Source: Streptacidiphilus neutrinimicus (GTDB lineage: Bacteria; Actinomycetota; Actinomycetes; Streptomycetales; Streptomycetaceae). Taken from it: 64,000 bases of DNA. Below the pieces are notes generated by a model. That model saw nothing but the letters and a program-made list of their open reading frames with translations, was not told the origin of the DNA and did not search any database. Shown here piece by piece: positions 6,265 through 64,000 of this stretch. Numbering within the stretch: the stretch's first letter is position 1; the number at the start of each line of letters is the position of its first letter. The stretch is from assembly GCF_000787815.1 (NCBI RefSeq), contig NZ_BBPO01000008.1:1-64000 (forward strand), written 5' to 3'. Both the position numbers and the translations under genes were made by a program.

Positions 6265-6446
6265 GACGCCTCCCTGGAGTCGGGGCACATCGGGTTCCGC
6301 GCCGGGACCTGCTCACACCTGCCGAGGCTGTTCCGCTTCGCCGGGGTCCCGCCGGCAGAACCGAACGGAATGGGTCCGGCGGCGGGAAACCCCGGCGGCG
6401 CAATCCTCGACGTCTGTGGTGCAGCTACCCGTACAGGTGGTCGCAT

Positions 6447-8204
6447 TCAGCATCGCCCGCCCAGGATGATCTTCCAGACGCGCGTTGCCACCTGCAGATT
6501 GAGCCGCGTGTCCACATCCGCGAGGTCGTGGTCGCTGATCTCGCGAATGCGCTGCAGTCGGTAGCGCAGGGTGCTGCGGTGGACGGTCAGCGCGGCGGCC
6601 GCATCGTCGTAGTTGCCTCCGCAGTCGAAGTAGCGCGAGAGTGTCTCCACCAACTCCGTGTTGTGCTCGGCGTCGTAGTCGATCAGCCGGCCAAGCCACT
6701 CTCGCACGAAGAACTGCAGCTCCCGGAGATCGTTGCCGGGCCCCAGGATCCGGTACAGCCCCAGATCGTCGAAGAAGGTCGTCCCGCTACGTTGGCGGGA
6801 GTTCTGACGCACTTCCAGCGCCCGTAGTGCTTCCAGGTAGCAGCGATGAATGTCGCTCGGTGAGACGCTTCGAGTGCTCACCCCGATCGCTCCCTCGGGC
6901 GTCCCCAGTTCCTGGGCCAGCGCCGCATGCACGGCAGGTTCGTTGGGCCTCGCTTCGGACAGCACGACCACTCGGTCGCCGCGACGGGTGATCAGCGGAC
7001 GGATCGCTGCGGTGGCCATCGCTCGCTCGACAGCACGGGTGCAGGAGTCGTCTGCGGCGTTGCCCGGCCAGTGCACCACGACCACGTAGTGAGGACGTCG
7101 CAGGTCATGGCCGAGGGCTTCGGCTCGGGTGTAGGCGTCCGTGTCGTCAGCCCCTTCCAGCAGGTCGTCCATCAGCTGACGGCGCAGACGCAGTTCGACC
7201 GCGGTGAGTTCGCGCACACGCAGGAGTTCCTGGGCAAGTGACCGCAGAGCGTGATCCAACGCGAACATCGTGTGCTCGTTGGCCGTCGCTTCCGGGTCCT
7301 CGAGGGCGAGTACGCCGAGGAGGTCGCCGCGCGGCTGGGCCAGGACGATCAGCCGGTCCCTGACTTTGACCGGACCCGCCTCGCGCGCGACCCGCCGAAG
7401 CATCTCCTCCTGGTCGGACGCGGAGCGCACCGGATAGGGGTCGGGCCGACCGGGACCCGACCAGGACCTCAGGTTGCCGAACCGGTCTTCGATGAGCGAG
7501 GGCAGCCCGGTGAGCTCGTACAGCGCTTGGGCGATGGCGTCCTCGCCACCGCCCAGGGCGGCCACGTGGGCGAGGGACTCGTGCACGGTCGTCTGAAAGT
7601 GCAGCTCAGAGCGCACTGTGTCCAACTGCTGCAGTGCGGTGTCCCGTTCGCTGCGGAGTCGGCTCAGCTCGTCGGCCGGGTCGTGCCGCGCGGGGCGCCG
7701 GACCGCCAGTGAGACGGCTGCCGCCGTGAGCTCCACAAGGGTCGAGAGGAGGAAGTACCCCTGCTCACCGGGGTCGGAGTGGGAGGAGACCACGATGCAG
7801 CCGAGCCGACCGCCGAGCCCGTGCAGGCCGAACGCCCAGTTCCAGAAGCGCCCGGGAAGAGGTGCGGGGCCGTCAGCCTCGCCCGCCTCCTCCATCCGTG
7901 CGTCGTCGACCGTCGGTGCTCCCGCGTCATCGAGGAAGACGCGGGACAAGCCGTCGCCCGTCCCTAGATATCCGGCCTCTACGTGGTAGGGGCCGAGGGT
8001 GCTGACGTGTCGCATGGCCGACCGCACGATCTCACTCTGCTCCACGCAGGTGAACAGCGTGTGGGACAGCGCCAGCAGCCCGTGTGGGTCCAGCGCCGCG
8101 AGTCGGGGGGCGTGCTGTTCGGTGCCCCCGGTGTTGCTCGCGTGGCCGGTCACCGCCTCGTGGGAAACGTGAGCGGACAGCCTTTGTGACGGAGGGGAGG
8201 CCAT
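6447..8204 (-). CDS. PucR/CdaR-family transcriptional regulator with GAF-like domain
   Basis: A 585-aa regulator. The N-terminal half (about residues 40-330) has the look of GAF-type sensing domains with a Leu-rich helix between them. The C terminus has the PucR helix-turn-helix: FDCGGNYDDAAAAL, HRSTLRYRLQRI and a closing DLADVDTRLNLQVATRVWK. Such proteins usually activate nearby catabolic genes. The downstream neighbour on the same strand is the broken aldehyde dehydrogenase, a plausible former target. A 400-bp intergenic stretch separates it from the divergent dnaK operon. Confidence 0.88.
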   Translation of the reverse strand: MASPPSQRLSAHVSHEAVTGHASNTGGTEQHAPRLAALDPHGLLALSHTLFTCVEQSEIVRSAMRHVSTLGPYHVEAGYLGTGDGLSRVFLDDAGAPTVDDARMEEAGEADGPAPLPGRFWNWAFGLHGLGGRLGCIVVSSHSDPGEQGYFLLSTLVELTAAAVSLAVRRPARHDPADELSRLRSERDTALQQLDTVRSELHFQTTVHESLAHVAALGGGEDAIAQALYELTGLPSLIEDRFGNLRSWSGPGRPDPYPVRSASDQEEMLRRVAREAGPVKVRDRLIVLAQPRGDLLGVLALEDPEATANEHTMFALDHALRSLAQELLRVRELTAVELRLRRQLMDDLLEGADDTDAYTRAEALGHDLRRPHYVVVVHWPGNAADDSCTRAVERAMATAAIRPLITRRGDRVVVLSEARPNEPAVHAALAQELGTPEGAIGVSTRSVSPSDIHRCYLEALRALEVRQNSRQRSGTTFFDDLGLYRILGPGNDLRELQFFVREWLGRLIDYDAEHNTELVETLSRYFDCGGNYDDAAAALTVHRSTLRYRLQRIREISDHDLADVDTRLNLQVATRVWKIILGGRC

Positions 8205-8604
8205 AGATCACTCCGTTCTCCTCCGGTCATCGGAGGTGACCGAGCGACTCGTGGGTCCGTGCCTACCCAGCCTGGGCTAAATCAACCGGTTTGTTCGAGT
8301 TTACGGCTTGTTCTCGTGGACCGATCAAGTGTGTCGCTTTCTGACCTGCCGGGTGCAGGTGGCGCGCGCCGCTCTCGTGCCAGTCTGGGTCTTTCACGGA
8401 TCGTCGGACGCGCCGCCAGCCGTGGGAGCACCTTTCGATCAGGGGTTTCCCGTTGTGAGGAGGGCGGCCGTCGGACGGAGTGCGACTTCGGGCTGCTGAA
8501 CTGGCTGGGCGCGAGCAGCCGAGGAAAGGCCCCCGGTCACCCCGGCAAGTGCGCGAGCCCGAACGACTCCGAGGGAGAACGGGCCGTCGCGGAAGGAGTT
8601 CCTC
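8205..8604. promoter_or_regulatory. Divergent control region upstream of dnaK
   Basis: These 400 bases lie between the divergent PucR-like gene and dnaK and must hold the promoter of the chaperone operon. An AACCGGTT palindrome sits at 8284-8291. I searched by eye for HspR-binding HAIR sequences (CTTGAGT-N7-ACTCAAG) and for CIRCE and found neither. The dnaK ribosome binding site GGAAGGAG lies just before 8605. Confidence 0.5.
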
Positions 8605-10521
8605 ATGGCCAAGGCAGTAGGGATCGACCTCGGCACCACGAACTCGGTGATCGCCGTGTGGGAGGGTGGCGAGCCGACGGTTGTCCCCAACAGCGAGGGC
8701 AACCGCACCACGCCGTCCGTGGTGGCCTTCACCGACGCCGGCGAGCGCCTGGTGGGCCAGCTGGCCCGCCGCCAGGCGATCCTCAACCCCAAGGGCACCA
8801 TCTACTCGGCCAAGCGGTTCATCGGCCGACACTTCGACGAGATCTCCGAAGAGGCCAGGGCGGTCGCGTACGACGTGGTCGAGGGAGACGGCGGCGCCGC
8901 CCGGTTCAAGGTGCGCGACAAGCTCTACGCGCCCGAGGAGATCAGCGCGCAGGTGTTGCGCAAGCTCGCCGACGACGCCTCCAAGCAGTTGGGGGAGCGG
9001 GTCACGGAGGCGGTCATCACGGTGCCCGCCTACTTCAACGACGCCCAGCGCACCGCCACCAAGGACGCCGGACGGATCGCCGGCCTTGAAGTGCTGCGGA
9101 TCATCAACGAGCCGACCGCGGCCGCCCTCGCCTATGGCATGGACAAGAAGCAGCACGAGACGGTACTCGTCTTCGACCTGGGCGGTGGCACCTTCGACGT
9201 CAGCATCCTCGACGTCGGCGACGGGGTGGTGGAGGTGCGGTCCACGGCGGGCGACAGCCATCTGGGCGGCGACGACTTCGACCGACGGCTGGTCGATCAG
9301 CTCGCCGAGGGCTTCCAGAAAGAGAACGGCATCGACCTGCGCAAGGATCCGCAGGCTCTGCAGCGACTCTTCGAGGCCGCCGAGAAGGCCAAGACAGAGC
9401 TCAGCTCGGTGACCCAGACGCAGGTCAGCCTGCCGTTCATCACGGCCGACGCCTCTGGCCCCAAGCATCTGACCACGACGATCATGCGGTCCACGTTCGA
9501 GCAGATCACCGGCGACCTGGTGGAGCGTTGCCTGGGCCCGGTGCGCCAGGCCATGGACGACGCCAAGGTCAGTGACAACGACATCGACGAGGTCATCCTC
9601 GTCGGCGGCTCCACCCGCATCCCTGCCGTCCAGGCCCTGGTGCGGAGGCTGACCGGCGGCAAGGAACCCAACATGAGCGTCAACCCCGACGAGGTCGTGG
9701 CGATGGGCGCCGCGATCCAGGCCGGGGTCCTCAAGGGCGAGGTGAAGGATGTCCTGCTGCTCGACGTCACCCCGTTGTCGCTGGGCGTGGAGACACGCGG
9801 CGGCGTGATGACGAAGATCATCGAGCGGAACACCACCATTCCGGTGCGCCGCACCGAGACCTTCTCCACCGCCGAGGACAACCAGCCCGCCGTCGACGTC
9901 GTCGTCCTGCAGGGCGAGCGTGAGAGGGCTGCGGACAACCGGGTCCTGGGTCGCTTCCAGCTCACGGACATCCGCCCCGCGCCGCGCGGTGAGCCGCAGA
10001 TCGAGGTCATCTTCGACATCGACGCCAACGGCATCCTCAGCGTCACCGCGCGGGACAAGGACACGGGGAAGGAGCAGAGCATCACCATCAGTGAGAGTTC
10101 CAACCTCGACCGCAGCGAGGTGGAACGGATGGTCCAGGAGGCGGAGAGCAACCGCGGCCAGGACCAGGCCCTGCGCGAGGCGGTCGACGCCCGGAACGAA
10201 CTGGATGCCATCGCCTACCAGGTCGAAAAGCGCCTCGGAGAGCTCGGCGACGCCGCCCCCGCACACGAGAAGGCCCGCGCCGAGATGCTCGTGGCCGAGG
10301 CTCGCGAGGCGGTCAAGAACGAGGCCGGGGTGGACAAGGTCCGGCCACTGACCTCCGAACTCCAGCAGGTTTTCGCGGGGCTGACGGCCCACCAGGCGGG
10401 AGCCGCCGCAGGCGGTCCGGCGGGCACCGGCTCACCGGATGGATCCGGCCCCGGCGCGGCCGCACCGGGGGGTTCCGGGGGCGACGACGATGTGATCGAC
10501 GCCGAGTTCGACAAGGGCTGA
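8605..10521 (+). CDS. dnaK: Molecular chaperone DnaK (Hsp70)
   Basis: Hsp70 of 638 aa, an ATP-driven holdase/foldase. The ATPase domain shows [10 protein letters not shown] at the N terminus, [14 protein letters not shown] in the middle and [11 protein letters not shown]. The substrate domain follows with [14 protein letters not shown], and a Gly/Asp-rich tail ends [10 protein letters not shown]. It opens a run of at least seven same-strand genes (grpE, dnaJ, cbpM-like, clpB, thioredoxin and more). The clpB, thioredoxin and reductase cargo, and a cbpM-like gene where housekeeping loci carry hspR, suggest a second, accessory dnaK copy. That cannot be proven from this window. Confidence 0.96.
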
Positions 10522-52528: not shown

Positions 52529-52744
52529 TCAGCAGCACAGCGGAATGTCGTCCGTCGTGGCGGCTCCGGGGACGGACGTCGCCGGTGCTGCCTTGGGGGC
52601 TGTGTGGGCGGTGGGCAGGGCTGCCAGGAGAAGGGCGGCGGTGAGCATCAGTCCAGCGGCCGCTGCGGCGGCCGGGCGGTGTCTGGTGGTGTCCGGCTGC
52701 AGGCGCTGCGCGTGGGAGGCGGTGGCGCGGGGCACGATGTGCAT
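52529..52744 (-). CDS. Small exported peptide next to XRE-TPR regulator
   Basis: A 71-aa protein with a Sec-type signal: Arg/His-rich start (MHIVPRATASHAQRL), hydrophobic core AGLMLTAALLLAALP and probable cleavage near THTA|PKA. A mature tail of about 20 residues ends TTDDIPLCC. AGGAG lies seven bases before the ATG at 52744, so translation is likely. It is 117 bp downstream of the XRE-TPR gene on the same strand, probably its operon partner. It could be a secreted pheromone precursor or simply a small secreted protein. No family recognised. Confidence 0.72.
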   Translation of the reverse strand: MHIVPRATASHAQRLQPDTTRHRPAAAAAAGLMLTAALLLAALPTAHTAPKAAPATSVPGAATTDDIPLCC

Positions 52745-52861: not shown

Positions 52862-54247
52862 CTACGCGGTCCCCTCAGCCGATGCCGTGGCCTCGGCCGG
52901 GCGGGGCCGCCGGGCGGTGCGTCGGGCGAGGGAGGCGAGGTCACTGCGTTGGCCAAGGCATCGCAGGCTCTGCTGGTAGGCATGGGCGGCGCGCTCGGCG
53001 TGGCCGGCCACCTGCATGATCTCGGCGAGGTCGTTCCAGGCTGAGGCGGCCTGCCGTCCGGCGTCGGATGCTTCGAGCAGCAGTGCGGCCCGCTCGGCGT
53101 CGGCCTCGGCCGCGTCGTCGCGGCCCAGATGGAACCGGGCGGCAGCCATGACCAGCAGGGCCCGTGCCGTCTGGAGCCGGTGGCCGTCGCCGAGGAGTTC
53201 CAGTGCTTGGCGGGCGTGCTCCAAGGCGGCCTCACCCTCCCCGTCGAGGAGCTCGGCCCGCGCCAGCGCCGTGTGGCAGTACGCCTGGTCGACGGTGCTG
53301 CCGTGGTCGGCCAGCAGTTCCGCGCTGCGGTTGAGCTGGTCCCTGGCGGCGCCGACGTCAGGGGTGTCGCTCTGCAGCAGGACGACCGCGTAGGCGTTGC
53401 GCAGTCGGGCAAGGGCGCGGGCGTCGTCCCCTTCGGCGTAGATGGCGAGGGCCCGTTCGATCAGGGTGAGTGCGTCGCCGGTGTCGCCGCACCGGTGGGC
53501 CACGACGCTGGCGTTCCAGTAGGCGGCGCCCAGCGCCTTGCGGTCGCTGACGGCTTCGGCCTGCCCGATGGCGTTCCCGGCCAGGTATCCGGCGCGGTGC
53601 AGGTCGCCTCGCTCGCAGTGCAGTCCCACGAGCGTGGAGACGAGTTCGACGCCGAGGACCGTCGGGGCGAGCTGGAGGGCCTCCAGTTCGGCCAGGGCGG
53701 CAGTGCCCACGTCGATGGCGTGGGCGAGGTTGCCCAGCTCGCGGTAGCAGCGGCAGAGCGCGACGGTGATCTTCAGTCGGGGCACCAGCGTGGCACCGCG
53801 GCCGGCCCGGGCGAGCAGGGCCTCGTAGTGTCCGATGGCCTCCTCCAGGCGCCCGTCGTGCTCCAGGGCCTCGGCGACGCCGAGGTCCGCCGCCAGCCTG
53901 GTCGGGTCCTGGCTGTTCTCGGGGGCCCGGTCACGGACGGCGGTGTAGGCCTCCAGTGCGGCCTTGGGGTCGCCGTTGCGCAGGCTGATCTCCGCGTAGC
54001 GCAGGTCGATCTGGAGTCGCTCGGGATCGGGCTGGTCGGCCCGGAGGTGGCGTAGCAGCGCCTCGGGCTCGCAGCCGAGGCGTTCGGCGAGCTGGTGCAG
54101 GACCTCGTCCGAGGGGGTGCGCTTGCCGGCTTCCAGCAACGAGATGTAGCTGGGGGAAAGGTTGCCCCCGGCGAGGTCGATCTGGGACAGCCCGGCGGCG
54201 CGGCGCAGTTGGCGGATATGCGAGCCAAGGTGCTGGGGATCTGCCAC
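52862..54247 (-). CDS. XRE-type HTH regulator with TPR domain
   Basis: A 461-aa regulator. HTH_3 at residues 8-62 (LGSHIRQLRRAAGLSQIDLAGGNLSPSYISLLEAGKRTPS) is followed by about ten TPR-like helix pairs to the end (DLGVAEALEHDGRLEEAIGHYEALL, AALELLGDGHRLQTARALLVMAAARFHLG-type repeats). This layout matches peptide-responsive RRNPP regulators of Firmicutes and many uncharacterised Streptomyces XRE-TPR proteins. GTG start with GAAGGG upstream. A dyad sits before it, a small exported peptide gene after it, and the SARP gene is divergent. Confidence 0.9.
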   Translation of the reverse strand: MADPQHLGSHIRQLRRAAGLSQIDLAGGNLSPSYISLLEAGKRTPSDEVLHQLAERLGCEPEALLRHLRADQPDPERLQIDLRYAEISLRNGDPKAALEAYTAVRDRAPENSQDPTRLAADLGVAEALEHDGRLEEAIGHYEALLARAGRGATLVPRLKITVALCRCYRELGNLAHAIDVGTAALAELEALQLAPTVLGVELVSTLVGLHCERGDLHRAGYLAGNAIGQAEAVSDRKALGAAYWNASVVAHRCGDTGDALTLIERALAIYAEGDDARALARLRNAYAVVLLQSDTPDVGAARDQLNRSAELLADHGSTVDQAYCHTALARAELLDGEGEAALEHARQALELLGDGHRLQTARALLVMAAARFHLGRDDAAEADAERAALLLEASDAGRQAASAWNDLAEIMQVAGHAERAAHAYQQSLRCLGQRSDLASLARRTARRPRPAEATASAEGTA

Positions 54248-54492: not shown

Positions 54493-57400
54493 ATGGATCC
54501 GGCGGAGGACGGGGCCGAAGTCTGCTTCCGGGTCCTCGGGCAGATGCACGGCACGCGGGACGGGGCCGCGATCGCGACCGGGTCGCCCCAGCAGCAGGCC
54601 ATGCTCGCTGTGCTGTTGCTGCGCGCCGGGCACGACGTGCCCGTGCAGGACCTGATCACCGCGGTCTGGGGGGAGGCGCCCCCGGACACGGCGCTGGCCA
54701 CCATCCGCACCTACGCCTGGCGTTGGCGGCGGGCGTTGGGCGAGAGCCGAGAGCAGCCTCACACGCTGTTGTCGGCCGGGGACGGGTACCGGCTGGTCCT
54801 GGAGCCCTGGCAGGTGGACGCCCTGCGGGCGGAGCGGCTGGCGACGCAGGCCTTCCAGGCACGCGAGGCGGGTCGGCACGACCGAGCCGACGCGCTGGTG
54901 TGGCAGGCGCTGGAGCTGTGGAGGGGCGACCCGCTGACGGGGGTGCCGGGCCCGTTCGCCGAACAGCAGCGGCGCAGGCTGGGCGAGTTGCGGCTGTCCC
55001 TGCTGGAGGAGCACTTCGAGCTGCAAACCGTGTTGGGGCGTCACCTGCTGACGATTCCGGGGCTGAGTGCGTTCATCGACGAGAACCCGCTGCGGGAGCG
55101 GGCCTACGGCCTGTTGATGCGCGCCCTGTACGCGGGGGGTCGGCAGGTGGAGGCACTCGCCGTCTACGCGCGACTGCGGCGGCATCTCAACGAGGAGCTG
55201 GGCGTCGACCCGGGCCCGGCCGTCCGCCTCCTGCAGCGTCAGATCCTGGCCAACGACCCCGGACTGCTGGCTGCGGACCGCCCCGGCCCGGCCGACGGAA
55301 GCTCCCCCGAGGCCGGTGCCGCGGCCCGACGGGCGGGAGCGGCCGGGGCGGACGCCGGTCCGGGGCCCGGTACGGCGTCGGGCCGGATAGTCGTCCCGGC
55401 CCAGCTGCCGCCGGCGGCCGCCGACTTCACCGGCCGCGAGGACGTGCTGACACGGCTGTGCGCGGTCCTCGGCGGTGGGCGCCGCGAGGTGCTGCCGGTC
55501 GTCTCGGTCACCGGGATGGGCGGGGTCGGCAAGACGACCCTGGCCCTGCGTGCGGCGCACCGGGCCAAGGACCGCTTCCCCGACGGCCAGCTCTACACCG
55601 ACCTGCGCGGCAGCGACCGAGACCCGCTGGACCCCGCCGCGGTACTGGCGGCTTTCCTGACCGCGCTGGGCACGGAGGAGCGCCGGGTGCCCGCCGGCGT
55701 CGAGGAGCGCTCACGGCTGTTCCGCACCATGGTGGACGGCCGCCGGGTGCTGGTGGTCCTGGACAACGCACGCGACCTGGCGCAGATCGAGCCGCTGTTG
55801 CCGGGTGCGGCGAGCTGCGCGGTACTGGTGACGGGCCGGGCGAGGCTGGTCGGCCTGCCGGTGGACGAGCAGGTCGACCTGGCGGGCTTCCGGCCGGACG
55901 AGGCGCTGGAGCTGCTGGCAAGGATCGCGGGGCGGCCGCGCGTCGAGGAGGACCTGGCAGGTGCCCGCGAGGTGCTCCGGCTCTGCGGTCACCTGCCGCT
56001 GGCGGTGCGGATCGCGGCGGCGCGGCTGGCTGCGCGGCCGGGATGGTCGGTGGCCGAGCTGGCGCGTCGCCTCGCCGACGAGCGGCGGCGGATCGGCGAG
56101 CTGCGGGCCGGGGAGCTGGCCGTCGAGGCCGCCTTCGAGGTGGGCCACGAGCAGCTGACCGCGGCGCAGGCGCGGGCCTTTCGGCTCACCGCGGCGGTCG
56201 CCGACCCGGACATCGGTACCCCGGCGGCCGCGGCGGTGCTCGCCCTGGATCCGCACCGCGCGGAGGACCTGCTGGAGTCCTTGGTCGACGCCGCCATGCT
56301 GGAGAGCCCCGCCGGGGGACGCTACCGGTTCCACAGCCTGATGCGGGCGTTCGCACTCCACCGGCCCGTGCCGCCGGGCGCGCCGGGCGCCGAGGGCGAC
56401 CGGGAGACGGACGGCCCGGGGACGCGGCAGGGAGCAGAGGGTCCTGAGGGGGCGTTGGGCAGGCTGGTGGACTTCCTGCTGGCGACCGCCGCGGCGGCCT
56501 TCGCGGCGGTGGTGCCCGGGGATGCCGCGCGTGACACCTTCGCGTCGACCAGGGCCCGGGTCGAGCACTTCACCGACGCGGGCGCGGCCCGGGCATGGGC
56601 GGCCCAGGAGTTCCCCGGCGCGTGCTCGGCGGTGCTGGCCGCCGCCACGCGGACGGTGGCGCACCAGGCGTCCGGCGCGGGTGGCGGGGGCTCCCCGCCG
56701 GGGCCCGACGCGACGGTGCTGGGCCCGGCGGTCGACCTGCTGATCGCCTTCAGCGCGTTCGGCGCGGAGGTGCAACGCGAGCGGTTGGCGGCGGTGGCAC
56801 TGGCGGCGGCGCGGTCGGCGGAGGCGGTCGGTGACCATCGGTCGGTCGGACGGGCACGGTTCCTGTGCGGGAACCTTGCGGTGCAGGGTGTTCGGCTGCA
56901 GGAGGCCTCCGCGCACCTGGACGCCGCCGCCGTCGCCTGCCGCCGGGCGGGCGATGTGGTGATCCTGCGGCAGACCCTGAACGACCTGGGCCTGGTGGAG
57001 CAGTTCCAGCACCGGCACGAGGAGGCGATCCGCCACTTCGACGAGGCGATCACGCTGGCCCGGGAGCTCGGGCAGCGGTCGGGCGAGTGGGTGACGCGGG
57101 TCAACGCCGCCCTGGCCCGGCTGTCCGCAGGGCAGGCCGGGCAGGCGGTGCGCGCCTGCGAGGAGGCGCTGCCGGTGTTTCGGGGGCTGTCCGACACTAC
57201 GGGTACCGCCTATGCCCTCTACGTGCTGGGCTTGGGCCTGCATCGCCTGGGCCGTGACGGGGAGGCGGAGGCTCGTCTGCGCGAGTGCCTCGGGGTCTGC
57301 CAGGCGGCAGGGCTGGACGGCCGCCAGGCGCAGGCCCGCTACCGGCTGGCGGACGTGCTGCGCGCGCTGGGGCGGTTGGACGACGCCGTGGCCGAGGCGG

Positions 57401-57603
57401 AGCGGTCTTTGGAGCTGTGTGTGGAGCTGCGGGCGGAGCGCGACCAGGGACTCGCGCTGACCGTGCTCGGCCGGGCCTTGGCCGAGCACGGCCGGATCGA
57501 GGCGGCTCGCACGCACCTGTGGCAGGCCCGGAGCGTCTTCGAGCGCCTGGGCCTGCCGGAAGCGGCCTGGGTCGGACAGGAGTTGGCCCGCCTGGCCGGT
57601 TGA
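54493..57603 (+). CDS. AfsR/SARP-family regulator (BTAD, NB-ARC, TPR)
   Basis: A 1036-aa large SARP. The winged helix and BTAD domain fill about residues 8-250 (FRVLGQMHGTRDGAA, AVWGEAPPDTALATIRTYAWRWRRAL, YGLLMRALYAGGRQVEALAVYARLRRHLNEELGVDPGP). An NB-ARC ATPase has P-loop GMGGVGKTT near residue 340 and LVVLDNAR. A C-terminal TPR array starts near 770 (NDLGLVEQFQHRHEEAIRHFDEAI). I start it at the ATG at 54493; the frame opens at 54328 but with a non-conserved stretch. SARPs activate secondary-metabolite genes, and the adjacent peptide/ABC/oxygenase locus is the obvious candidate target. Confidence 0.92.
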   Translation: MDPAEDGAEVCFRVLGQMHGTRDGAAIATGSPQQQAMLAVLLLRAGHDVPVQDLITAVWGEAPPDTALATIRTYAWRWRRALGESREQPHTLLSAGDGYRLVLEPWQVDALRAERLATQAFQAREAGRHDRADALVWQALELWRGDPLTGVPGPFAEQQRRRLGELRLSLLEEHFELQTVLGRHLLTIPGLSAFIDENPLRERAYGLLMRALYAGGRQVEALAVYARLRRHLNEELGVDPGPAVRLLQRQILANDPGLLAADRPGPADGSSPEAGAAARRAGAAGADAGPGPGTASGRIVVPAQLPPAAADFTGREDVLTRLCAVLGGGRREVLPVVSVTGMGGVGKTTLALRAAHRAKDRFPDGQLYTDLRGSDRDPLDPAAVLAAFLTALGTEERRVPAGVEERSRLFRTMVDGRRVLVVLDNARDLAQIEPLLPGAASCAVLVTGRARLVGLPVDEQVDLAGFRPDEALELLARIAGRPRVEEDLAGAREVLRLCGHLPLAVRIAAARLAARPGWSVAELARRLADERRRIGELRAGELAVEAAFEVGHEQLTAAQARAFRLTAAVADPDIGTPAAAAVLALDPHRAEDLLESLVDAAMLESPAGGRYRFHSLMRAFALHRPVPPGAPGAEGDRETDGPGTRQGAEGPEGALGRLVDFLLATAAAAFAAVVPGDAARDTFASTRARVEHFTDAGAARAWAAQEFPGACSAVLAAATRTVAHQASGAGGGGSPPGPDATVLGPAVDLLIAFSAFGAEVQRERLAAVALAAARSAEAVGDHRSVGRARFLCGNLAVQGVRLQEASAHLDAAAVACRRAGDVVILRQTLNDLGLVEQFQHRHEEAIRHFDEAITLARELGQRSGEWVTRVNAALARLSAGQAGQAVRACEEALPVFRGLSDTTGTAYALYVLGLGLHRLGRDGEAEARLRECLGVCQAAGLDGRQAQARYRLADVLRALGRLDDAVAEAERSLELCVELRAERDQGLALTVLGRALAEHGRIEAARTHLWQARSVFERLGLPEAAWVGQELARLAG

Positions 57604-57741: not shown

Positions 57742-57954
57742 CTACAGGCGGTCCATCACCGGCGGCGGCACGCAGGCCCCGGTGTTGTTCCAGTCGTCGG
57801 TGGCCGACCCCGCCTGCGCCGTTGCCGCAGCGGCGCAGGCGGCGCGGTGGGCGGTGGCGGCGGTGGCGTCCGCGTGTCCGATGCCGACGAAAACCGACAG
57901 AGCGGCGGTGAGGACGGCGAGGCGCAGGAGCGACGACTTCACGACGCGGGGCAT
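57742..57954 (-). CDS. Small exported peptide
   Basis: A 70-aa protein. Signal peptide MPRVVKSSLLRLAVLTAALSVF and so on, likely cleaved around GHA|DAT. The mature part is Ala/Thr-rich with two Cys and the tail TDDWNNTGACVPPP followed by VMDRL. AAGGA precedes the ATG at 57954. It is the last gene on the minus strand after the M16/GNAT genes (90 bp gap). It shares the pattern A-T-(T)-D-D plus a C-terminal Cys with the exported peptide encoded at 52529-52744, which may be coincidence. Confidence 0.68.
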   Translation of the reverse strand: MPRVVKSSLLRLAVLTAALSVFVGIGHADATAATAHRAACAAAATAQAGSATDDWNNTGACVPPPVMDRL

Positions 57955-58043
57955 GGCAGTGGTTCCTTCGTTCGGGAGCGGCAGTGCCCGGCCAGTGTGG
58001 CGCAGGGCGATCTACGTCCGATATATGGCTGCTTGGGCCCGTC

Positions 58044-58898
58044 TCAGGGCCGTTCGGCGTACCGGTAGAGATGGGTCGGCCGCCAGCCGCCGGCCTGGAG
58101 GGCGGCGACGACGCGCGCGGCCGGGTCGGGACCGCCGGGGTGGTCGGGTCGGGGGTGGGAGACGTTGCCGAGCAGGGGCAGGCCGAGCTCCGCGGCCAGC
58201 CCGGCGCAGGCATGGACCAGGGTGCCGGTGGCCGCCCTGGTCCTGCCGGGGCCGTCGAGCAGGATGTCCACGAGTTCGACGAACGCCGTGCCGGAGACGT
58301 CGTCGTATGCGTCCGTCAGCACCGTCGCGTGACCGAGCGGGACGCCGGTGTGCGGGTGTCGGACGATGCAGCTGCGACGGGAGGGGTCCGCCATCAGTCG
58401 GGCTGCCGCGTCGCGGGCCGCTGCGGGACCGGCGTCCTGGCCGCGGTCGCGGGCGGCGGTGGTCAGGGCCCGGGCGAGCCAGTCGGCGACCGACGCGTCA
58501 TGGAGGCGCCCGTCGTCCCATCCGACGGGCGGCGCGTCGGCGGCCGGGGGCAGCTCGGCCGCGGGCGCGTAGCGAAGATAGGTCGTCAGCGGGCCGAGGG
58601 CGGGGTGCGATGGCGTGTCGGGCATGGTGCGCACGACAGCGGAGGTGCAGGCGGGCCGGAGGGAGAAGACCGCCGCGAGCAGGCGCGGCGGGTCGGCCAG
58701 CAGGGCGGGGTGGGCGTACTCCACCAGGCACTGCTGCTCTCCGGTGACCGGCTCGAGGTAGGCGTCGGCGACGTAGGTGCGGCCGTCGAGGGTGTGGGCC
58801 AGTCCGGCCTCGCGGGCGGCGTGGAGGTAGGCGGGGTCGACGTCGAACCCGGACTCGGGGGCGGAGGCGGGCGCGCCGGTGCCCGGTGCGGCGTTCAC
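58044..58898 (-). CDS. GNAT-like protein
   Basis: A 284-aa protein starting at the GTG overlapping the peptidase stop (GTGA). The C-terminal 130 residues resemble an acetyltransferase fold: CIVRHPHTGVPLGHATVLTDAYDD, ELVDILLDG, ATGTLVHACAGLAAELGLPLLGNVSH and VVAALQAGGWRPTHLYRYA. The N-terminal 130 residues may be a second divergent domain (TYVADAYLEPVTGEQQCLVEY). Tight coupling with the M16 peptidase suggests both act on the same peptide. GNAT assignment is moderately sure. Confidence 0.72.
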   Translation of the reverse strand: MNAAPGTGAPASAPESGFDVDPAYLHAAREAGLAHTLDGRTYVADAYLEPVTGEQQCLVEYAHPALLADPPRLLAAVFSLRPACTSAVVRTMPDTPSHPALGPLTTYLRYAPAAELPPAADAPPVGWDDGRLHDASVADWLARALTTAARDRGQDAGPAAARDAAARLMADPSRRSCIVRHPHTGVPLGHATVLTDAYDDVSGTAFVELVDILLDGPGRTRAATGTLVHACAGLAAELGLPLLGNVSHPRPDHPGGPDPAARVVAALQAGGWRPTHLYRYAERP

Positions 58899-60124
58899 GC
58901 GGCCTGCGGCCGGACGACGCAGACGAGCCCGTCGGCCAGTTCGGCGGCGGCGGTGGTCACCTGCTGCGCGGTCACCTCGCACAGGGCCTCGATGTCCTGG
59001 TCCGGGTCCCAGGGGTGTTCCACGAGGACCCGCTGCGAGGCCAGGGACATGGCCAGGTCCAGCGGGGCCTCGGCCTCCAGCACGGTGTCCACGACGGCCT
59101 GGTGCACGGCGGCGGCGAGGGCCTCGTCGCTTGGCCCCTCGGCGGCGACCGTGTGCAGGATCTCCTGGAACGCGTCGAGCAGGCGCGGGGCGTTGCCGGG
59201 CTCGGTGCCCGCCAGCATCCGCCAGGCGCCGGCGTCGCTGTAGTTGCGGGCCCAGGAGCGGAAGTCGTAGGCCAGCGCCTCCTTGTTGCGCAGCCGGGCG
59301 TAGAGGAGGGAGGCGGGGCTGGCGCCGAGGAGATGGGCGAGGACGTTGTAGGCGTGGCGGCGGGGGTCGCCCGCGCTGGGGGCGCGGCCGCCGGCCATCA
59401 GCCAGGTGAAGTCGTCGGGCCAGGCGGTGACGGTGGTCGGGTGCACGGGGCCGGGGGCGGCAGCCCCGGTGCCGGCGCCGCCGCCGAGCACGGTGGGTGC
59501 GGGCAGGGTGTCCAGGCCGGTGCGGGTCAGCGCGCGCTGCAGCGCGTCGGGGTCGGTGCCCCCGACGGCGGCGACGGCGACGGGGCTGGCGGCCATGGCG
59601 TCGGCGTGGGCGCGGTGGAGCCGGTCCAGGGTGATCGTGCCGACGCTGACCGGGTCGCCCGCGACCGGGGATCCGAGCGGGTGTCCGGCGAACAGGGCGG
59701 CCAGGAAGGCGTCCTGGACGGTGTCTGCGGGGTCGGCGACGGCCGCGGCGATCTCCTGGAGCACCACCTGACGTTCGCTGTCCAGGCAGTCCTGGGTCAG
59801 CTGGAAGTCGAGCAGGGCGCGGGACATCCACTCCAGGGTCTGCGGTGCGTCCTCGGCGAGCACCTGGGCGTGGATGAGCAGTGTCTCGGGGCCGGTGCGG
59901 GCGTTGACCGACCCACCGGCGCGCTCGACGCGCTCGCACAGCGGCGCTCCGCCGTCCAGCGGCCGGGACATGACCAGATGCTCGAACAGGTGGGCGGTAC
60001 CTTCGGCGCCTGGGGGGTCGTGGCGGCCGCCGAAGCCGAGCGCGAGGCAGAGGCTGGTGGTGCGGAGCCTGGGTTCGTGGCTGAGCAGGACCGGCACGTT
60101 TCCGGCGCGCAGTTGTTGGGTCAC
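58895..60124 (-). CDS. M16-family zinc metallopeptidase
   Basis: A 409-aa peptidase with the inverted zinc motif H45-L-F-E48-H49 and the third ligand Glu124 (QEIAAA) at the expected 75-residue distance. N-terminal domain: LLSHEPRLRTTSLCLALGFGGRHDPPGAEGTAHLFEH. C-terminal domain: HLLGASPASLLYARLRNKEALAYDFRSWARNYSDAGAW, the usual R/Y substrate-binding signature. GTG start at 60124 with AGGAGG eight bases upstream. Similar to PqqF/AlbE/AlbF-type peptidases used in RiPP maturation. It is the first gene after the 22-aa peptide gene and hairpin. Confidence 0.92.
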   Translation of the reverse strand: MTQQLRAGNVPVLLSHEPRLRTTSLCLALGFGGRHDPPGAEGTAHLFEHLVMSRPLDGGAPLCERVERAGGSVNARTGPETLLIHAQVLAEDAPQTLEWMSRALLDFQLTQDCLDSERQVVLQEIAAAVADPADTVQDAFLAALFAGHPLGSPVAGDPVSVGTITLDRLHRAHADAMAASPVAVAAVGGTDPDALQRALTRTGLDTLPAPTVLGGGAGTGAAAPGPVHPTTVTAWPDDFTWLMAGGRAPSAGDPRRHAYNVLAHLLGASPASLLYARLRNKEALAYDFRSWARNYSDAGAWRMLAGTEPGNAPRLLDAFQEILHTVAAEGPSDEALAAAVHQAVVDTVLEAEAPLDLAMSLASQRVLVEHPWDPDQDIEALCEVTAQQVTTAAAELADGLVCVVRPQAA

Positions 60125-60179
60125 GGGAGGCCTCCTGGTGTCGGGACCGGCGGTGGCGGGGACGGGGGCGGGACATGCG

Positions 60180-60219
60180 GATGGGGTGCCGCCAGGCCAC
60201 GGCCTGGCGGCACCCCATC
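60180..60219 (-). terminator. 19-bp hairpin between peptide gene and peptidase gene
   Basis: The left arm 60180-60198 and right arm 60201-60219 (GGCCTGGCGGCACCCCATC) are perfect complements around a two-base AC centre. It lies 15 bp after the peptide stop and 55 bp before the peptidase start, so it probably partially terminates or stabilises RNA to keep peptide mRNA in excess. Confidence 0.75.
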
Positions 60220-60233
60220 GCTTGCTCATCGGC

Positions 60234-60302
60234 TCACTTGCCGGAGCGGACCTTGATCTTGTCCAGGCGCGGGCGCATGGCGGTGGCGTGGTTGCGGGTC
60301 AT
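60234..60302 (-). CDS. 22-aa Lys/Arg-rich peptide, putative RiPP precursor
   Basis: A short open frame with 22 codons plus TGA. It begins MTRNHATAM and ends IKVRSGK, with four Arg, three Lys, one Pro, one Asp and no Cys, Ser-rich tract or signal. Its ATG at 60302 is preceded by GAGAGGAGGAAC, one of the best ribosome binding sites in the window. It has its own upstream region (60303-60527) after the ABC permease gene, and a strong hairpin after it. Modifying and exporting functions on both sides (2OG oxygenases, ABC exporter, M16 peptidase, GNAT) make it a likely substrate. No known RiPP family matched by eye. Confidence 0.72.
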   Translation of the reverse strand: MTRNHATAMRPRLDKIKVRSGK

Positions 60303-60459
60303 GGTGGGTTCCTCCTCTCGATGTGCTGTTGGTCCGTCAGGGGGGCTCAGGAGCGGGCGGACCGGTCCGTTCCCTTCGAGGCCCCGGCGGGGCGCGGCGC
60401 GCCGGGCTGTGCCCGGTGCGCAGGTCCCGCGGTCTGCTCGGCGGGGTCTCCCCAGCGCC

Positions 60460-60510
60460 GTGACTCATATTCAACTCGATTGTGACTATGGAGTCAATCT
60501 CCGAAGTCAC
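60460..60510. promoter_or_regulatory. 11-bp-spaced repeats upstream of the 22-aa gene (SARP-box like)
   Basis: GTGACTC (60460), TCAACTC (60471), GTGACTA (60482) and GTCAATC (60493) start exactly 11 bp apart, with GTGACT repeated at 22 bp. The arms GTGACT (60482-60487) and AGTCAC (60505-60510) also form a dyad. On the minus strand TTGACT (60497-60492) and GAATAT (60472-60467) could be a -35/-10 pair, although the 19-bp spacing is long. Confidence 0.55.
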
Positions 60511-60527
60511 ATTCATTTCCGATGGAC

Positions 60528-61331
60528 TCAGATCGCGAATGCGATGCTGCCGTCGCGGCGCCCGCGGTCCGCCATGGCACGCAGCAGCGCCACCGCGCCC
60601 GCCAGCCAGGCTGCGCCCACGGCCAGGCCCAGCAGGGCCTGCGGAGCCACCGAGGCGGCGCCACCGCCGTCCACGAGCGCCCGCAGCGCGTCGAGTTCGT
60701 GCGTCAACGGCATGGACCACGCCAGTACCCGCACGGGCAACGGCCAGAAGCCGACCGGGACTTCGACACCGCAGACGGCCATCATCCCCAGGTAGGCGAC
60801 ATTGGACGCGACATTGCGCCACGAGCTCGCCCCCAGCACCAGCGCCGCCAGCAGCAGCCCGAAGCAGTACGTGCCGACCGCGCTGGCGGCCACCAGCACC
60901 GCCGCCACGGCGGCGGTGGCCGGGCTCCAGTCGACGCCGAAGAAGGGCCCGAGCCCCAGCAGCGCCGCCAGGGAGGTGGCGCAACCGCTGGGCAGCCACT
61001 GCAGACTGCGGCCCACGAAGATCCAGGACACGTCCGCGGGCGCGGCGACCAGCAGCGGCAACGTCCCCGCGCGGCGCTCCCAGGCGCTGGAGGCGACCAC
61101 CATCATCGACTCGATCGCACACAGCGTCAGCGCGTTGCCCAGGAACAGGAACCGCTGGTGCCCCGCCCCCGAGAAGGTCCGCCCGGCCAGGGTGAAGAAC
61201 ACCACCTGGCACAGCATCCGCAGGAGCCAGCCGAACAGCCAGGTCCTCCAGGTGTAGGTGGCCCGCAGGTCGGCCGCGGCGTTGGCGGCGCTGCACCGCA
61301 CGATCCGCCACGCGGGCGTCCCGGTCCTCAT
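60528..61331 (-). CDS. ABC-2 type transporter permease
   Basis: A 267-aa permease with six helices (WLFGWLLRMLCQVVFFTLAGRTFSG, FLFLGNALTLCAIESMMVVASSAWE, SLQWLPSGCATSLAALLGLGPFFG, AVLVAASAVGTYCFGLLLAALVLG and two more). WERRAGTLPLLVAAP is the ABC-2 cytoplasmic loop signature. The ATG overlaps the preceding permease stop (ATGA). Partner of the next permease and the ATPase in an exporter, probably for the 22-aa peptide product. Confidence 0.88.
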   Translation of the reverse strand: MRTGTPAWRIVRCSAANAAADLRATYTWRTWLFGWLLRMLCQVVFFTLAGRTFSGAGHQRFLFLGNALTLCAIESMMVVASSAWERRAGTLPLLVAAPADVSWIFVGRSLQWLPSGCATSLAALLGLGPFFGVDWSPATAAVAAVLVAASAVGTYCFGLLLAALVLGASSWRNVASNVAYLGMMAVCGVEVPVGFWPLPVRVLAWSMPLTHELDALRALVDGGGAASVAPQALLGLAVGAAWLAGAVALLRAMADRGRRDGSIAFAI

Positions 61332-62131
61332 GCCAGCCCCAGGGTGCCCGCGGCGCGCACCCGCGTCAGGATCCGCCGCATCAGCCACCCTCCGGCTGCG
61401 AAGCCCGCCAGGCCCAGTGCCGTGAGCGCCAGCAGCCTGCCGGGAAGGTCGGCGACCGCGGGCGTGGCGAGCGAGTCCCGCAGCAGCCCGCCGGACCAGG
61501 TGAGGAACACCAGCCGGCTGGCCGGGCGCAGCCACCCGGGCAGCGCGCTGACCGGCATCAGCACGCCACCCAGGAGGTAGACGGGGTAGCTGAGCGAGTT
61601 CTGGAAGATCCGCGCCGAGCGGCTGAGCACGAACGCGCAGGCCATCGCCGTCGCCGTGCCCGTCATCGCGAACGCGGTGGCCAACAGGCCCACGCCGAAC
61701 GCCATCGGGTGCACGAGGGGGACGCGCAGTCCGAACACCCAACGGGCCACCGCCCAGGCCTCGGCCAGCGAGATCAGGCTCACCGCCGCGACCGCAGCCA
61801 GGCGGGCCGCGACGACCGTGAACAGCGGCACCGGGGCGGCCACGACCGCCTCGAGCCTGCCGGCCGACCGGTCCTGCGTGATCAGGTCGCCCGCCGCGAA
61901 GAGCATCATGCTCCATAGCGCGATCAGGCCCGGTGCCAGGACCGCGTAGGCGGTCAGCGACCGGTCGCCGGACACCGCGGCGATCGCCAGGAAGATCAGC
62001 GCGTAGAGCGGCACCGTGAACAGGACCCGCAGGTCGCCGACCGAACGGCGGACCAGGAGCAGTTGCACCCGGAACGCGGCCGCCGCCGCCCTCGCGTCCC
62101 GCACGGCCCTCGGCGCGCCCGGTGGCCTCAT
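61328..62131 (-). CDS. ABC-2 type transporter permease
   Basis: A 267-aa permease of the same length and topology as the downstream one. LFTVPLYALIFLAIAAVSG, LAPGLIALWSMMLFAAGDLITQDRSAGRLEAVVAAPVPL (ABC-2 signature) and QNSLSYPVYLLGGVLMPVSALPGWLRPASR before the last helix. ATGA overlap with the ATPase gene. The pair likely forms a heterodimeric membrane domain. Confidence 0.9.
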   Translation of the reverse strand: MRPPGAPRAVRDARAAAAAFRVQLLLVRRSVGDLRVLFTVPLYALIFLAIAAVSGDRSLTAYAVLAPGLIALWSMMLFAAGDLITQDRSAGRLEAVVAAPVPLFTVVAARLAAVAAVSLISLAEAWAVARWVFGLRVPLVHPMAFGVGLLATAFAMTGTATAMACAFVLSRSARIFQNSLSYPVYLLGGVLMPVSALPGWLRPASRLVFLTWSGGLLRDSLATPAVADLPGRLLALTALGLAGFAAGGWLMRRILTRVRAAGTLGLA

Positions 62132-63195
62132 CGCGCCACCTCCATGCCGCGCCGCCCGATCAGCCGCAGATAGACCTCCTCGAGCCCCGGCCGGGACGTC
62201 GCCAGCTCCCGGACCCCCGCGTCGAGCAGCAGCCGTACCACCGCGGCCGCGTCCCCGCCTTCGCCCACCCGCAGCACGGTCCGTCCCTGCGCGTCGGGCG
62301 GTACGGCGGTGACGTGCGGCAGCGCGGACAGCTGCGTCAGCACCCCGGGCGGCACGTCGCGCGCGGTCACCCGTTCGCTCTCCGCCGCCCAGGCGCCGAG
62401 CTCGGCCGGGGTGGCGCTGGCCACGACCGCGCCGCGGTCGATCAGCGTGACCCGGTCGCAGACCGCCTCCGCCTCGGCCATGTCGTGCGTCGTCACCAGG
62501 ACGGTCCGCCCCTCGGCGCGCAGCGCGCGCACCAGGTCGCGGAACCCGTGCGCGGAGACCGGGTCCATGCCGGCCGTCGGCTCGTCCAGCAACACCACGG
62601 GCGGATCGTGGACCAGGCCCCGAGCCAGGTGCAGCCGCTGCTTCATGCCACGCGAGAACCGCTCCACCCGCTCGTCGGCATGGGCGCCCAGGCCGAGCTG
62701 CTCCAGCAGCTCCTCGCTTCGCTCGGCCAGACGGCGACCCGACATTCCGTACAGGCAGGCCCAGTAGAGCAGGTTCTGACGTGCGGTCAGTCTCTCGTAG
62801 AGCCCGCGCTCGCCGCCGAAGACGATGCCGATGAGCGGGCGCACGGCCGCCGGGCGGGCGGCCACGTCGTGGCCCAGCAGGTGCACGGTGCCGGAGCTGG
62901 GCAGCAGCACCGTGGAGAGGATCTTGCACAGCGTGGTCTTGCCCGCGCCGTTGGGCCCGAGCAGCCCGTGCACCTCGCCCGGGGCGATGTCGAGGTCGAT
63001 CCCCCGCAGCGCGACCCGCTCGCCGGTGTCCTCGTCGCGGCGGCGGCCCCGAAGGCGACCGGTGAAGAGGCCCGAGCCGCGGCCCGTGGTCCGGAAGGTA
63101 CGGCGCAGCGCCCGCACCGAGACGGCCGCCCGGGTGTCCGGGGCCGCGGTGGCGTCGGCCGCGTCGGCCGCGGCGGCCGCGGCGGCCCGCGTCAT
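62128..63195 (-). CDS. ABC transporter ATP-binding protein
   Basis: A 355-aa ATPase. An Ala-rich N terminus leads to Walker A LLGPNGAGKTTLCKIL, signature RFSRGMKQRLHLARGL, Walker B PVVLLDEPTAGMDPVSA and switch His in VTTHDMAEAE. It has a C-terminal extension (SERVTARDVPPGVLTQLSALPHV...) typical of DrrA-like exporters. The ATG at 63195 overlaps the oxygenase stop (ATGA). Confidence 0.94.
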   Translation of the reverse strand: MTRAAAAAAADAADATAAPDTRAAVSVRALRRTFRTTGRGSGLFTGRLRGRRRDEDTGERVALRGIDLDIAPGEVHGLLGPNGAGKTTLCKILSTVLLPSSGTVHLLGHDVAARPAAVRPLIGIVFGGERGLYERLTARQNLLYWACLYGMSGRRLAERSEELLEQLGLGAHADERVERFSRGMKQRLHLARGLVHDPPVVLLDEPTAGMDPVSAHGFRDLVRALRAEGRTVLVTTHDMAEAEAVCDRVTLIDRGAVVASATPAELGAWAAESERVTARDVPPGVLTQLSALPHVTAVPPDAQGRTVLRVGEGGDAAAVVRLLLDAGVRELATSRPGLEEVYLRLIGRRGMEVAR

Positions 63196-63845
63196 CGCCC
63201 GCCCGCCTCGGGCCGGACGAAGTGCAGGAGCAGCGTCAGCCGGTCCGGGGCGCCGGGGGCCACGGGGGTGACGCAGTGCCAGGAGCGTGCGGAGGGCCGC
63301 ATCAGCACCGAGGTGCCCAGCGTCGGACCGACCTCGGCCGCCACGTCCTGCGGGTCGGGCGAGCGAAGGACGCGCAGCGCGCCCGCCCATTCGGGCCGCC
63401 AGTGCGGGTTGAAGTACCAGATCTGGGTGACGGCCTTGTCCGCCCGGTCGGTGTGCGGGTCGATCCAGCCCTGCTGCGCGTAGCGGACGGCGCGCAGATG
63501 CGCGGTGCAGCCGTCGAGGTCGACGTCCATGACGTCGCCGAGCCGTGCCCGGTAGTCGTCGCCGAGCAGAGTGTCCACCAGGTCGCGCCATCGCGGGGCC
63601 AGCCGCCCCACCGCCGCGCCGGGCACGCCCCGGTCGGCCAGGGTCAGGTTGTGCGTGCTGTATCCCTTGCCGCCGGTCCCGGCGTCCGCGGTGCGCAGGG
63701 TGTAGCCGGTGGCGGGGAAGTCCGCGGCCAGCTCGGCCGCGGTGCGCGGGTCGCCGAAGCAGTCGCGCAGCAGCGCCCAGTCGAAGGGGTCGCGGCGGAC
63801 GTCGCAGCGCTCCAGCGCCCGCAGGTCGACCACGGGCGCGGTCAT
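63192..63845 (-). CDS. 2OG-Fe(II) oxygenase
   Basis: A 217-aa dioxygenase of the prolyl-hydroxylase-like (2OG-FeII_Oxy_3) type. Iron ligands are His131 and Asp133 in WIDPHTDRADK and His190 in RSWHCVTPV. Arg202 (DRLTLLLHFVRP) should bind 2-oxoglutarate. It would hydroxylate or desaturate an amino acid side chain, plausibly in the cluster's peptide. ATG at 63845 in a four-base overlap with the upstream oxygenase; a GTG at 63851 is an alternative. Confidence 0.9.
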   Translation of the reverse strand: MTAPVVDLRALERCDVRRDPFDWALLRDCFGDPRTAAELAADFPATGYTLRTADAGTGGKGYSTHNLTLADRGVPGAAVGRLAPRWRDLVDTLLGDDYRARLGDVMDVDLDGCTAHLRAVRYAQQGWIDPHTDRADKAVTQIWYFNPHWRPEWAGALRVLRSPDPQDVAAEVGPTLGTSVLMRPSARSWHCVTPVAPGAPDRLTLLLHFVRPEAGGR

Positions 63846-64000
63846 GCCCACAGCTCCACCTGGATCGTGCAGCGCAGCCGGGTGGCGTCCGCGCGGACCG
63901 GTTCCACCGCGTGCCAGGAGGACTCGGACCGGGCGAAGACCACCGAGCGGGGCGCCTGCGGCGACAGCGCGGCGTACGGGGCGTCGTCGTCGCCGTACAC
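63842..64000 (-). CDS. Second 2OG-Fe(II) oxygenase, partial (C terminus)
   Basis: The last 52 codons of a gene that runs off the window's right edge. SVVFARSESSWHAVEPV and TRLRCTIQVELWA parallel the distal His and Arg strand of the neighbouring oxygenase (RSWHCVTPV, DRLTLLLHFV). It is a paralogue whose N-terminal half, with the HxD ligands, lies outside the window. It overlaps the next gene by ATGA. Confidence 0.82.
   Translation of the reverse strand: MYGDDDAPYAALSPQAPRSVVFARSESSWHAVEPVRADATRLRCTIQVELWA

Follow-up and report, generated by a model that had tools for sequence, protein, structure and literature searches.

The question raised by this locus is what is made by a minus-strand operon in which a tiny gene for a 22-residue peptide stands among genes for oxygenases, an exporter, and a peptidase. 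The operon runs across the end of a 64,000-nucleotide stretch of Streptacidiphilus neutrinimicus DNA (contig NZ_BBPO01000008.1, positions 1 to 64,000; hereafter, the window), which sits on contig C177 (159,777 bp) within an 8.4 Mb Streptomycetaceae genome. The initial annotation had described overlapping genes for two 2-oxoglutarate (2OG)-Fe(II) oxygenases and for the ATPase and two permeases of an ATP-binding cassette (ABC) exporter, followed by the tiny gene with a strong ribosome binding site, a hairpin, an M16 peptidase with the HxxEH motif, and a GNAT-like protein, and this gene order was confirmed. It had read these genes as a new ribosomally synthesized and post-translationally modified peptide (RiPP) locus. 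The locus turned out to be more interesting than first described: rather than encoding a hydroxylated RiPP, it appears to be a cluster for a high-carbon nucleoside that contains a mobile cassette for a ribosomal peptide. On balance, we consider it somewhat more likely than not that the cluster is a hybrid one. A ribosomal peptide, trimmed by the M16 enzyme, would be joined to, or serve as carrier for, a high-carbon nucleoside, which would then be exported.

The peptide gene and its M16 peptidase

The peptide (MTRNHATAMRPRLDKIKVRSGK) is encoded behind the ribosome binding site GAGAGGAGG. Homologous loci were sought in several ways: relatives of the second oxygenase (2OG-B) were matched in seven further genomes of the family by protein search, an M16 alignment run against a genome collection yielded ten named loci (Streptomyces, Kitasatospora) together with one unrelated M16 protein, a second M16 search was positive in 17 of 396 family genomes, and the M16 matches in a class-wide sample of 395 genomes were confined to Streptomycetaceae. 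The set of homologous loci comprises 25 M16 loci, with L070 interrupted by a contig end. A conserved small frame before the M16 gene, which the initial annotation had named as its own test, was found in this set. Namely, a related open reading frame (ORF) of 17–23 residues was present in 21 of the 25 loci and immediately preceded the M16 gene in all but one of the 21; in the exception, L035, the ORF and its hairpin are on the opposite strand, past the end of the cassette by approximately 1.8 kb. The homologues share the consensus [RK][NKQ]Hxxx[LMV][RS]P[RT]L[DEQ]K[ILV], in which His, Pro, Leu, and Lys never vary and the positions R/R/R/[DE] are almost invariant. Conservation covers about 14 residues and reaches the N-terminus, and the C-terminal tail is variable, as exemplified by MVRNHKVGLRPRLDKVNVRAGK (L033, L041), MTRNHVALVSPRLEKVITKKA (L028), MKNHASILRPRLDKIKPQDR (L042), MQHVSAMRPRLDKIKKR (L037), and MTRNHATGLRPRLDKVKVKAAKA (L068, L072).

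When the 396 genomes were searched with a degenerate DNA pattern encoding Hxxx[LM]RPRLDK, 11 matches were obtained, 10 of which lay beside the M16 gene in M16-positive genomes (hypergeometric p = 9e-15), and the remaining one was a chance match within a long unrelated protein; the reversed pattern used as a control gave 2 matches. The small ORF is thus more than a product of chance and, by these sequence comparisons, represents a real gene. A stable hairpin was present 3′ of this ORF in each of the 21 loci (mononucleotide-shuffle z of −2.0 to −5.5), accompanied by a T-run in some of them. An Rfam search gave no match, and a literature search for the peptide motif (RPRLDK and variants) and for the combination of RiPP, nucleoside, and M16 returned nothing relevant.

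The M16 peptidase of the window, whose start is best placed at 60124 (GTG behind CAGGAGG), has an intact zinc motif HLFEH and distal Glu. In the alignment of the 25 M16 proteins, HxxEH and the distal Glu were present in the enzymes of all 21 peptide loci, and the motif was broken in all three evaluable loci that lack the peptide, reading HxxDH in L036, HxxER in L063, and HxxAR in L065; the GNAT gene is broken or absent in the same three loci. Given that the zinc motif is gone from the M16 protein wherever the peptide is missing in an evaluable locus, this enzyme very probably has the peptide as its substrate, and the co-loss appears to be the best evidence for such a role. The nearest relatives of solved structure are processing proteases, including MPP-beta. 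Proteases of the MPP-beta type favour Arg close to the cut site, and a cut at RPRL-DK would fit this kinship. Two hallmarks of a RiPP were accordingly found, a gene-encoded precursor conserved across homologous loci and a dedicated maturation protease linked to it; no peptide-modifying enzyme was identified with certainty in the locus.

The exchangeable cassette and the octosyl-type pathway

Comparison of the loci revealed that the peptide, the M16 peptidase, a tandem-GNAT protein, an NTP_transf_5-like nucleotidyltransferase, and the three-part ABC exporter form one unit by gene content, hereafter called the cassette. Each of the M16, GNAT, nucleotidyltransferase, ATPase, and two permease genes accompanies the peptide in about 19–25 loci, with fewer at the ends of contigs or regions. 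The RiPP proposal of the initial annotation thus holds insofar as peptide, M16 peptidase, GNAT-like protein, and ABC exporter recur together, and fails for the oxygenases, which lie outside this unit. The GNAT-like protein had no Pfam match but was modelled by AlphaFold2 as a tandem GNAT fold (mean pLDDT 87.5), with which Foldseek retrieved VipF (4e-9), the aminoacyl-tRNA-dependent peptide synthase Sba18 (7e-8), and a tandem GNAT of the clavulanate cluster; a PDB sequence search by GNAT profile returned nothing credible. The nucleotidyltransferase, present in 20 loci, scored 26.5 bits against NTP_transf_5 (PF14907), under the cut-off of 31.2 bits. Both Asp residues of its GDLDL motif are invariant, and its model weakly resembles pol-beta-type nucleotidyltransferases (E ~0.005–0.1). 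The nearest precedent for sugar addition to a peptide by a nucleotidyltransferase-like protein is PsmN, which acts on a phosphorylated lasso peptide after the kinase PsmK (PMC9266682). The octosyl loci, L067, and L069 also encode an HprK-like protein. As a separate observation, NDK-like proteins, some of them under the Pfam cut-off, recur beside cassettes that have no HprK-like protein of the octosyl-locus kind (L061 18906-19721; L063 2609-3478; L064 15426-16409; L068 4145-4996; L038 14936-15940).

The other half of the operon was revealed by its composition to belong to an octosyl-acid pathway. Published pathways of this type employ an enolpyruvyl transferase, a radical SAM enzyme, a phosphatase, two 2OG oxygenases, and a PLP (pyridoxal 5′-phosphate) aminotransferase, the two oxygenases being part of both the malayamycin and the polyoxin pathways (PMC5365060; PMC8724604). 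The same kinds of genes were found in the window cluster and in ten related octosyl-type clusters. In particular, the operon and the cluster genes beyond the window encode a MurA/EPSP-like enolpyruvyl transferase, a radical SAM protein with a CxxxCxxC motif whose nearest relatives lie within octosyl-type clusters, a Tyr-phosphatase-like protein, a HisC-like aminotransferase, and the two 2OG oxygenases. Together with a small kinase, the enolpyruvyl transferase, radical SAM cyclase, phosphatase, oxygenases, and aminotransferase are assigned on sequence grounds to the nucleoside half, which shares one overlapping operon with the exchangeable cassette half. The initial annotation had allowed that the oxygenase and ABC genes might be part of some unrelated pathway lying beyond the window; a nucleoside pathway does claim the oxygenases, but it is interleaved with the cassette in that operon.

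Relatives of the two oxygenases (2OG-A and 2OG-B) were found in the octosyl-type clusters L026/L088, L027, L028, L029, L030, L042, L084–L087, and the window, most of which have no peptide cassette. None was found in the cassette loci devoid of octosyl genes, and two remoter relatives, in L031 and L032, lie outside any octosyl gene set. Both window enzymes retain HxD and the distal His (HTD at 131–133 and His 190 in 2OG-B). Because the oxygenases track the octosyl genes, also where the cassette is missing, they are assigned by homology to the polyoxin/nikkomycin/malayamycin-like nucleoside pathway and not to the cassette. No match to a TruD-like pseudouridine synthase was found in the whole genome at E ≤ 10, in a search made without a positive control; TruD-like genes occur in several relatives, including L028 and L029. 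As no such enzyme was found in this genome, the base of the nucleoside is probably N-linked rather than C-linked in the malayamycin manner.

The partners of the cassette are diverse. An octosyl gene set adjoins it in four loci, which occupy three places in the M16 tree; a single clade was rejected (p-AU 1.7e-9; three changes), and the cassette state in the radical SAM tree likewise requires three changes. The trees thus place the joining of the cassette to octosyl clusters at three times at least. A cassette and an octosyl radical SAM gene occurred in the same genome in 4 of the 396 genomes against 0.43 expected (p = 4e-4), side by side in three of these four genomes and also in L042. Elsewhere, the cassette adjoins YcaO and TfuA (L033, L041); a ROK/DHQ-synthase fusion with a class III aminotransferase and an alcohol dehydrogenase (L034, and L063/L065 with the dead M16); SAHH-like, class III aminotransferase, DUF985 cupin, and guanylate-kinase-like proteins (L035, L037, L039, and partly L036); NDK-like and HprK-like proteins (L038, L040, L071); TauD with two radical SAM proteins (L061); P450 and dCTP-deaminase-like proteins, the latter named from sequence alone (L064); thymidylate-kinase-like and glycosyltransferase genes (L066); GFO/IDH/MocA genes (L067, L069); or uridine-kinase/HAD and aminotransferase genes (L068, L072). 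Aminocyclitol-like gene sets are among these neighbours.

Several observations on individual partner loci may be recorded here. The ROK/DHQ-synthase clusters of L063 and L065 are 88–89% identical to that of S. inhibens L034 and are natural loss-of-cassette variants useful for comparison. In L033 and L041, the region directly upstream of the cassette (5200-9870) holds YcaO, TfuA, a 577-residue protein of no known family, and a 47-residue acidic ORF (...LEGVITPW) that is possibly a second precursor. FemX together with HprK was considered as a marker of cassette-bearing octosyl clusters, which would have the separated halves in genome G153 work in trans; this was weakened by L084, where both are present and no cassette was found in its genome.

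Possible roles of the peptide

In the proposed hybrid pathway, the M16 peptidase would cleave its substrate at the conserved site RPRL-DK[IV] or close to it. The cassette nucleotidyltransferase and the GNAT-fold protein would then join the trimmed peptide to the nucleoside or use it as a carrier, a step that may be likened to the sugar addition by PsmN or to the peptide–nucleotide coupling of microcin C, and the ABC exporter would secrete the final product. Because the peptide core is the same beside unrelated pathways, pathway-specific enzymes are unlikely to act on the peptide, and the common ones, namely the M16, GNAT, nucleotidyltransferase, and exporter proteins, are the candidates.

Several points weigh against this proposal. 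The joining of peptide to nucleoside is inferred, as are the cut site and the order of steps, and the core shared beside differing pathways may be explained by a scaffold or a cleavage signal as well as by a product. The peptide has no conserved Ser/Thr for a step of the PsmK/PsmN kind. L063 and L065 are closely related, and the three M16 losses thus amount to two independent events. The cluster was compared with PolH/PolA/PolJ at the level of published gene lists. Furthermore, G153, one of the four genomes with both halves, has them far apart, and the cassette of L062 has no obvious partner pathway. That genome carries this partnerless cassette and, 6.7 Mb off, an octosyl cluster without a cassette (L088).

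The locus was compared with known systems. Like the polyoxin, nikkomycin, and malayamycin clusters, it encodes an enolpyruvyl transferase, a radical SAM protein, a phosphatase, two 2OG oxygenases, a HisC-like aminotransferase, and a small P-loop kinase, but differs from them in the embedded ribosomal-peptide cassette with its M16, tandem GNAT, nucleotidyltransferase, and exporter genes. Pyrroloquinoline quinone (PQQ; PqqA with the M16 proteins PqqF/PqqG) and subtilosin-type RiPPs likewise pair a peptide of about 22 residues with an M16 peptidase encoded alongside, by which processing is predicted here; unlike those systems, the locus has no PqqB/C/D/E or AlbA-type genes, its peptide sequence is unrelated, and one cassette serves many pathways. 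The peptide also contains no Tyr and hence no Glu/Tyr pair, and PqqE, PqqC, and PqqD are not among the conserved cassette genes. Microcin C offers an analogy in its very short ribosomal peptide, GNAT protein, exporter, and link to a nucleotide, from which the present peptide differs in being longer and, by prediction, M16-trimmed, and the present nucleoside in being made by its own pathway; no match to a ThiF/MccB adenylating enzyme was found among the scanned cassette genes, two SDR (short-chain dehydrogenase/reductase) genes being outside the scan. An HprK-like kinase and a nucleotidyltransferase-like protein beside a peptide gene recall the lasso peptides pseudomycoidin and paeninodin with PsmK and PsmN (PMC9266682), which differ in having lasso B/C genes and a conserved C-terminal Ser in the peptide. 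Neither lasso B (transglutaminase-like) nor lasso C (Asn-synthetase-like) proteins are among the conserved cassette genes.

That the peptide is instead a scaffold like PqqA or PEARL peptides, of which a residue or an addition is modified and excised by the M16 enzyme so that the product keeps little or no peptide, is judged rather unlikely. Its length of 17–23 residues and its M16 partner do recall PqqA with PqqFG, its core is shared across pathways, and the GNAT model resembles, among many GNATs, an aminoacyl-tRNA-dependent peptide synthase, whereas no gene of the PqqE/B/C/D or LanB/PEARL type is conserved in the cassette, which offers only the nucleotidyltransferase and the GNAT-fold protein for such chemistry. 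The strong hairpin right behind the ORF in every peptide locus, at times with a T-run and nearly always with M16 as the next gene, would suit a regulatory leader on which the product stalls the ribosome and opens the hairpin, inducing the M16, GNAT, and exporter genes for self-protection; GNAT proteins, nucleotidyltransferases, and DrrAB-like exporters are indeed typical resistance functions. However, hairpins behind RiPP precursor genes are common, the ORF and hairpin of L035 lie apart from the cassette and on its opposite strand, the M16 catalytic residues were lost where the ORF was lost, and the amino-acid sequence is conserved along the ORF up to the N-terminus, and a leader is thus considered improbable.

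There is little to be said for a secreted signal or immunity peptide of the cassette unrelated to the nucleoside structure: the cassette does stand beside many pathways, once seemingly alone (L062), with TPR (tetratricopeptide repeat) regulators nearby, but separate small secreted proteins already pair with these regulators and the 22-mer lacks a signal sequence. The model of the initial annotation, in which a RiPP would undergo hydroxylation by the two oxygenases, M16 trimming, possible acetylation, and export, was rejected as the leading explanation and is regarded as scarcely tenable. All the genes do lie within one operon, and the oxygenases match the RiPP oxygenase model YhhC, at an E of ~3e-5 that is far under the model's cut-off; set against this are their occurrence in octosyl clusters without the peptide, their absence from cassettes without the octosyl pathway, and the two 2OG oxygenases of the published malayamycin and polyoxin pathways.

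More broadly, we tentatively suggest, with somewhat less than even confidence, that the cassette defines an undescribed class of ribosomal-peptide hybrids, an exchangeable module that Streptomycetaceae would combine with many unrelated pathways to polar small molecules, the products being either conjugated to the peptide or templated by it. No described class matching the cassette was found, in line with the initial annotation, which could place the gene set in no known RiPP class. Peptidyl nucleosides are generally thought to receive their amino acids from ligases or nonribosomal peptide synthetases; here, by contrast, a ribosomal peptide with its own peptidase sits inside a nucleoside pathway, and the same cassette recurs elsewhere. 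If the peptide is joined to such molecules, the cassette would serve as a general module for tailoring and export, and the RPRLDK motif beside an M16 gene would provide a ready handle for mining overlooked natural products.

Gene layout and neighbouring genes

The minus-strand operon extends past position 64000 to ~68.1 kb of the contig, with more cluster genes until ~76.5 kb (Table 1). ATGA overlaps were found at all four junctions from 2OG-A through 2OG-B, the ATPase, and permease A to permease B, and a GTGA overlap joins the M16 gene to the GNAT-like gene. Pfam matches in the operon were to 2OG-FeII_Oxy, ABC_tran, ABC2_membrane, and both M16 domains.

Table 1. Genes and elements of the cluster and its surroundings in the window and on the remainder of the contig.
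Feature	Position	Strand	Basis or remark
SARP/AfsR-type regulator with TPR part, possible cluster regulator	54493..57603	+	Similar regulators near many cassette loci
Small secreted protein ending DDWNNTGACVPPPVMDRL	57742..57954	-	Convergent with SARP gene; outside peptide cassette
Tandem GNAT-fold protein of cassette	58044..58898	-	AlphaFold2, Foldseek
M16 metallopeptidase, 409 aa	58895..60124	-	Pfam PF00675 1e-19, PF05193 4e-21; active-site columns
Hairpin right after peptide gene	~60178..60220	-	z = -3.9 (dinucleotide shuffle)
22-aa peptide gene, probable M16 substrate/precursor	60234..60302	-	Kept in homologous loci; pattern search; ribosome binding site
ABC-2 permease B of cassette exporter	60528..61331	-	Pfam; kept in cassette loci
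ABC-2 permease A of cassette exporter	61328..62131	-	Pfam; kept in cassette loci
ABC exporter ATPase, DrrA-like	62128..63195	-	Pfam; kept in cassette loci
2OG-Fe(II) oxygenase B (2OG-B) of nucleoside pathway	63192..63845	-	Pfam; relatives in octosyl clusters; motif
2OG-Fe(II) oxygenase A (2OG-A) of nucleoside pathway	63842..64453	-	Cut by window end at 64000; Pfam; relatives in octosyl clusters; motif
SDR	64531-65412 of contig	-	Same operon past window edge
HprK-like P-loop protein	65409 to ~66644 of contig	-	Same operon
MurA/EPSP-synthase family protein (enolpyruvyl transferase)	66719-68134 of contig	-	PF00275, E 1e-24
Tyr-phosphatase-like protein	68319-69062 of contig		Genes past ~68.1 kb on both strands
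Second SDR, then GrpB-family protein	between phosphatase-like and kinase genes		GrpB label read from sequence
Small P-loop kinase	70714-71382 of contig		
HisC-like aminotransferase	71379-72530 of contig		
Radical SAM protein	72726-74060 of contig		Motif CPVGCSYC, read from sequence
FemAB-like protein	74057-75277 of contig		
Cassette nucleotidyltransferase (NTP_transf_5-like)	75306-76529 of contig		

Beside the regulators, secreted proteins of 60–80 residues with a signal-like N-terminus are encoded convergently with SARP/TPR genes and share a C-terminal WN[NS]T followed by about 8–14 residues. Apart from the one of the window (Table 1), they were found in L061 (1096-1335), L064 (8830-9048), L068 (11086-11280), L069 (5526-5750), and L072 (10985-11170). 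Together with the TPR regulators they look like peptide signal/receptor pairs of an RRNPP-like kind, and the window protein is a possible signal peptide of the neighbouring SARP regulator; a limited literature search found no description of such signal/TPR-receptor pairs in Streptomyces. A second kind of secreted protein, encoded beside an XRE-TPR regulator, has the C-terminal ending D[IF]P-x-CC (DDIPLCC, DTDFPPCC, LTDFPACC) and was observed in the window (52529-52744, minus strand, beside the XRE-TPR gene 52862-54247), in L061 (3598-3876), and in L066 (6975-7169).

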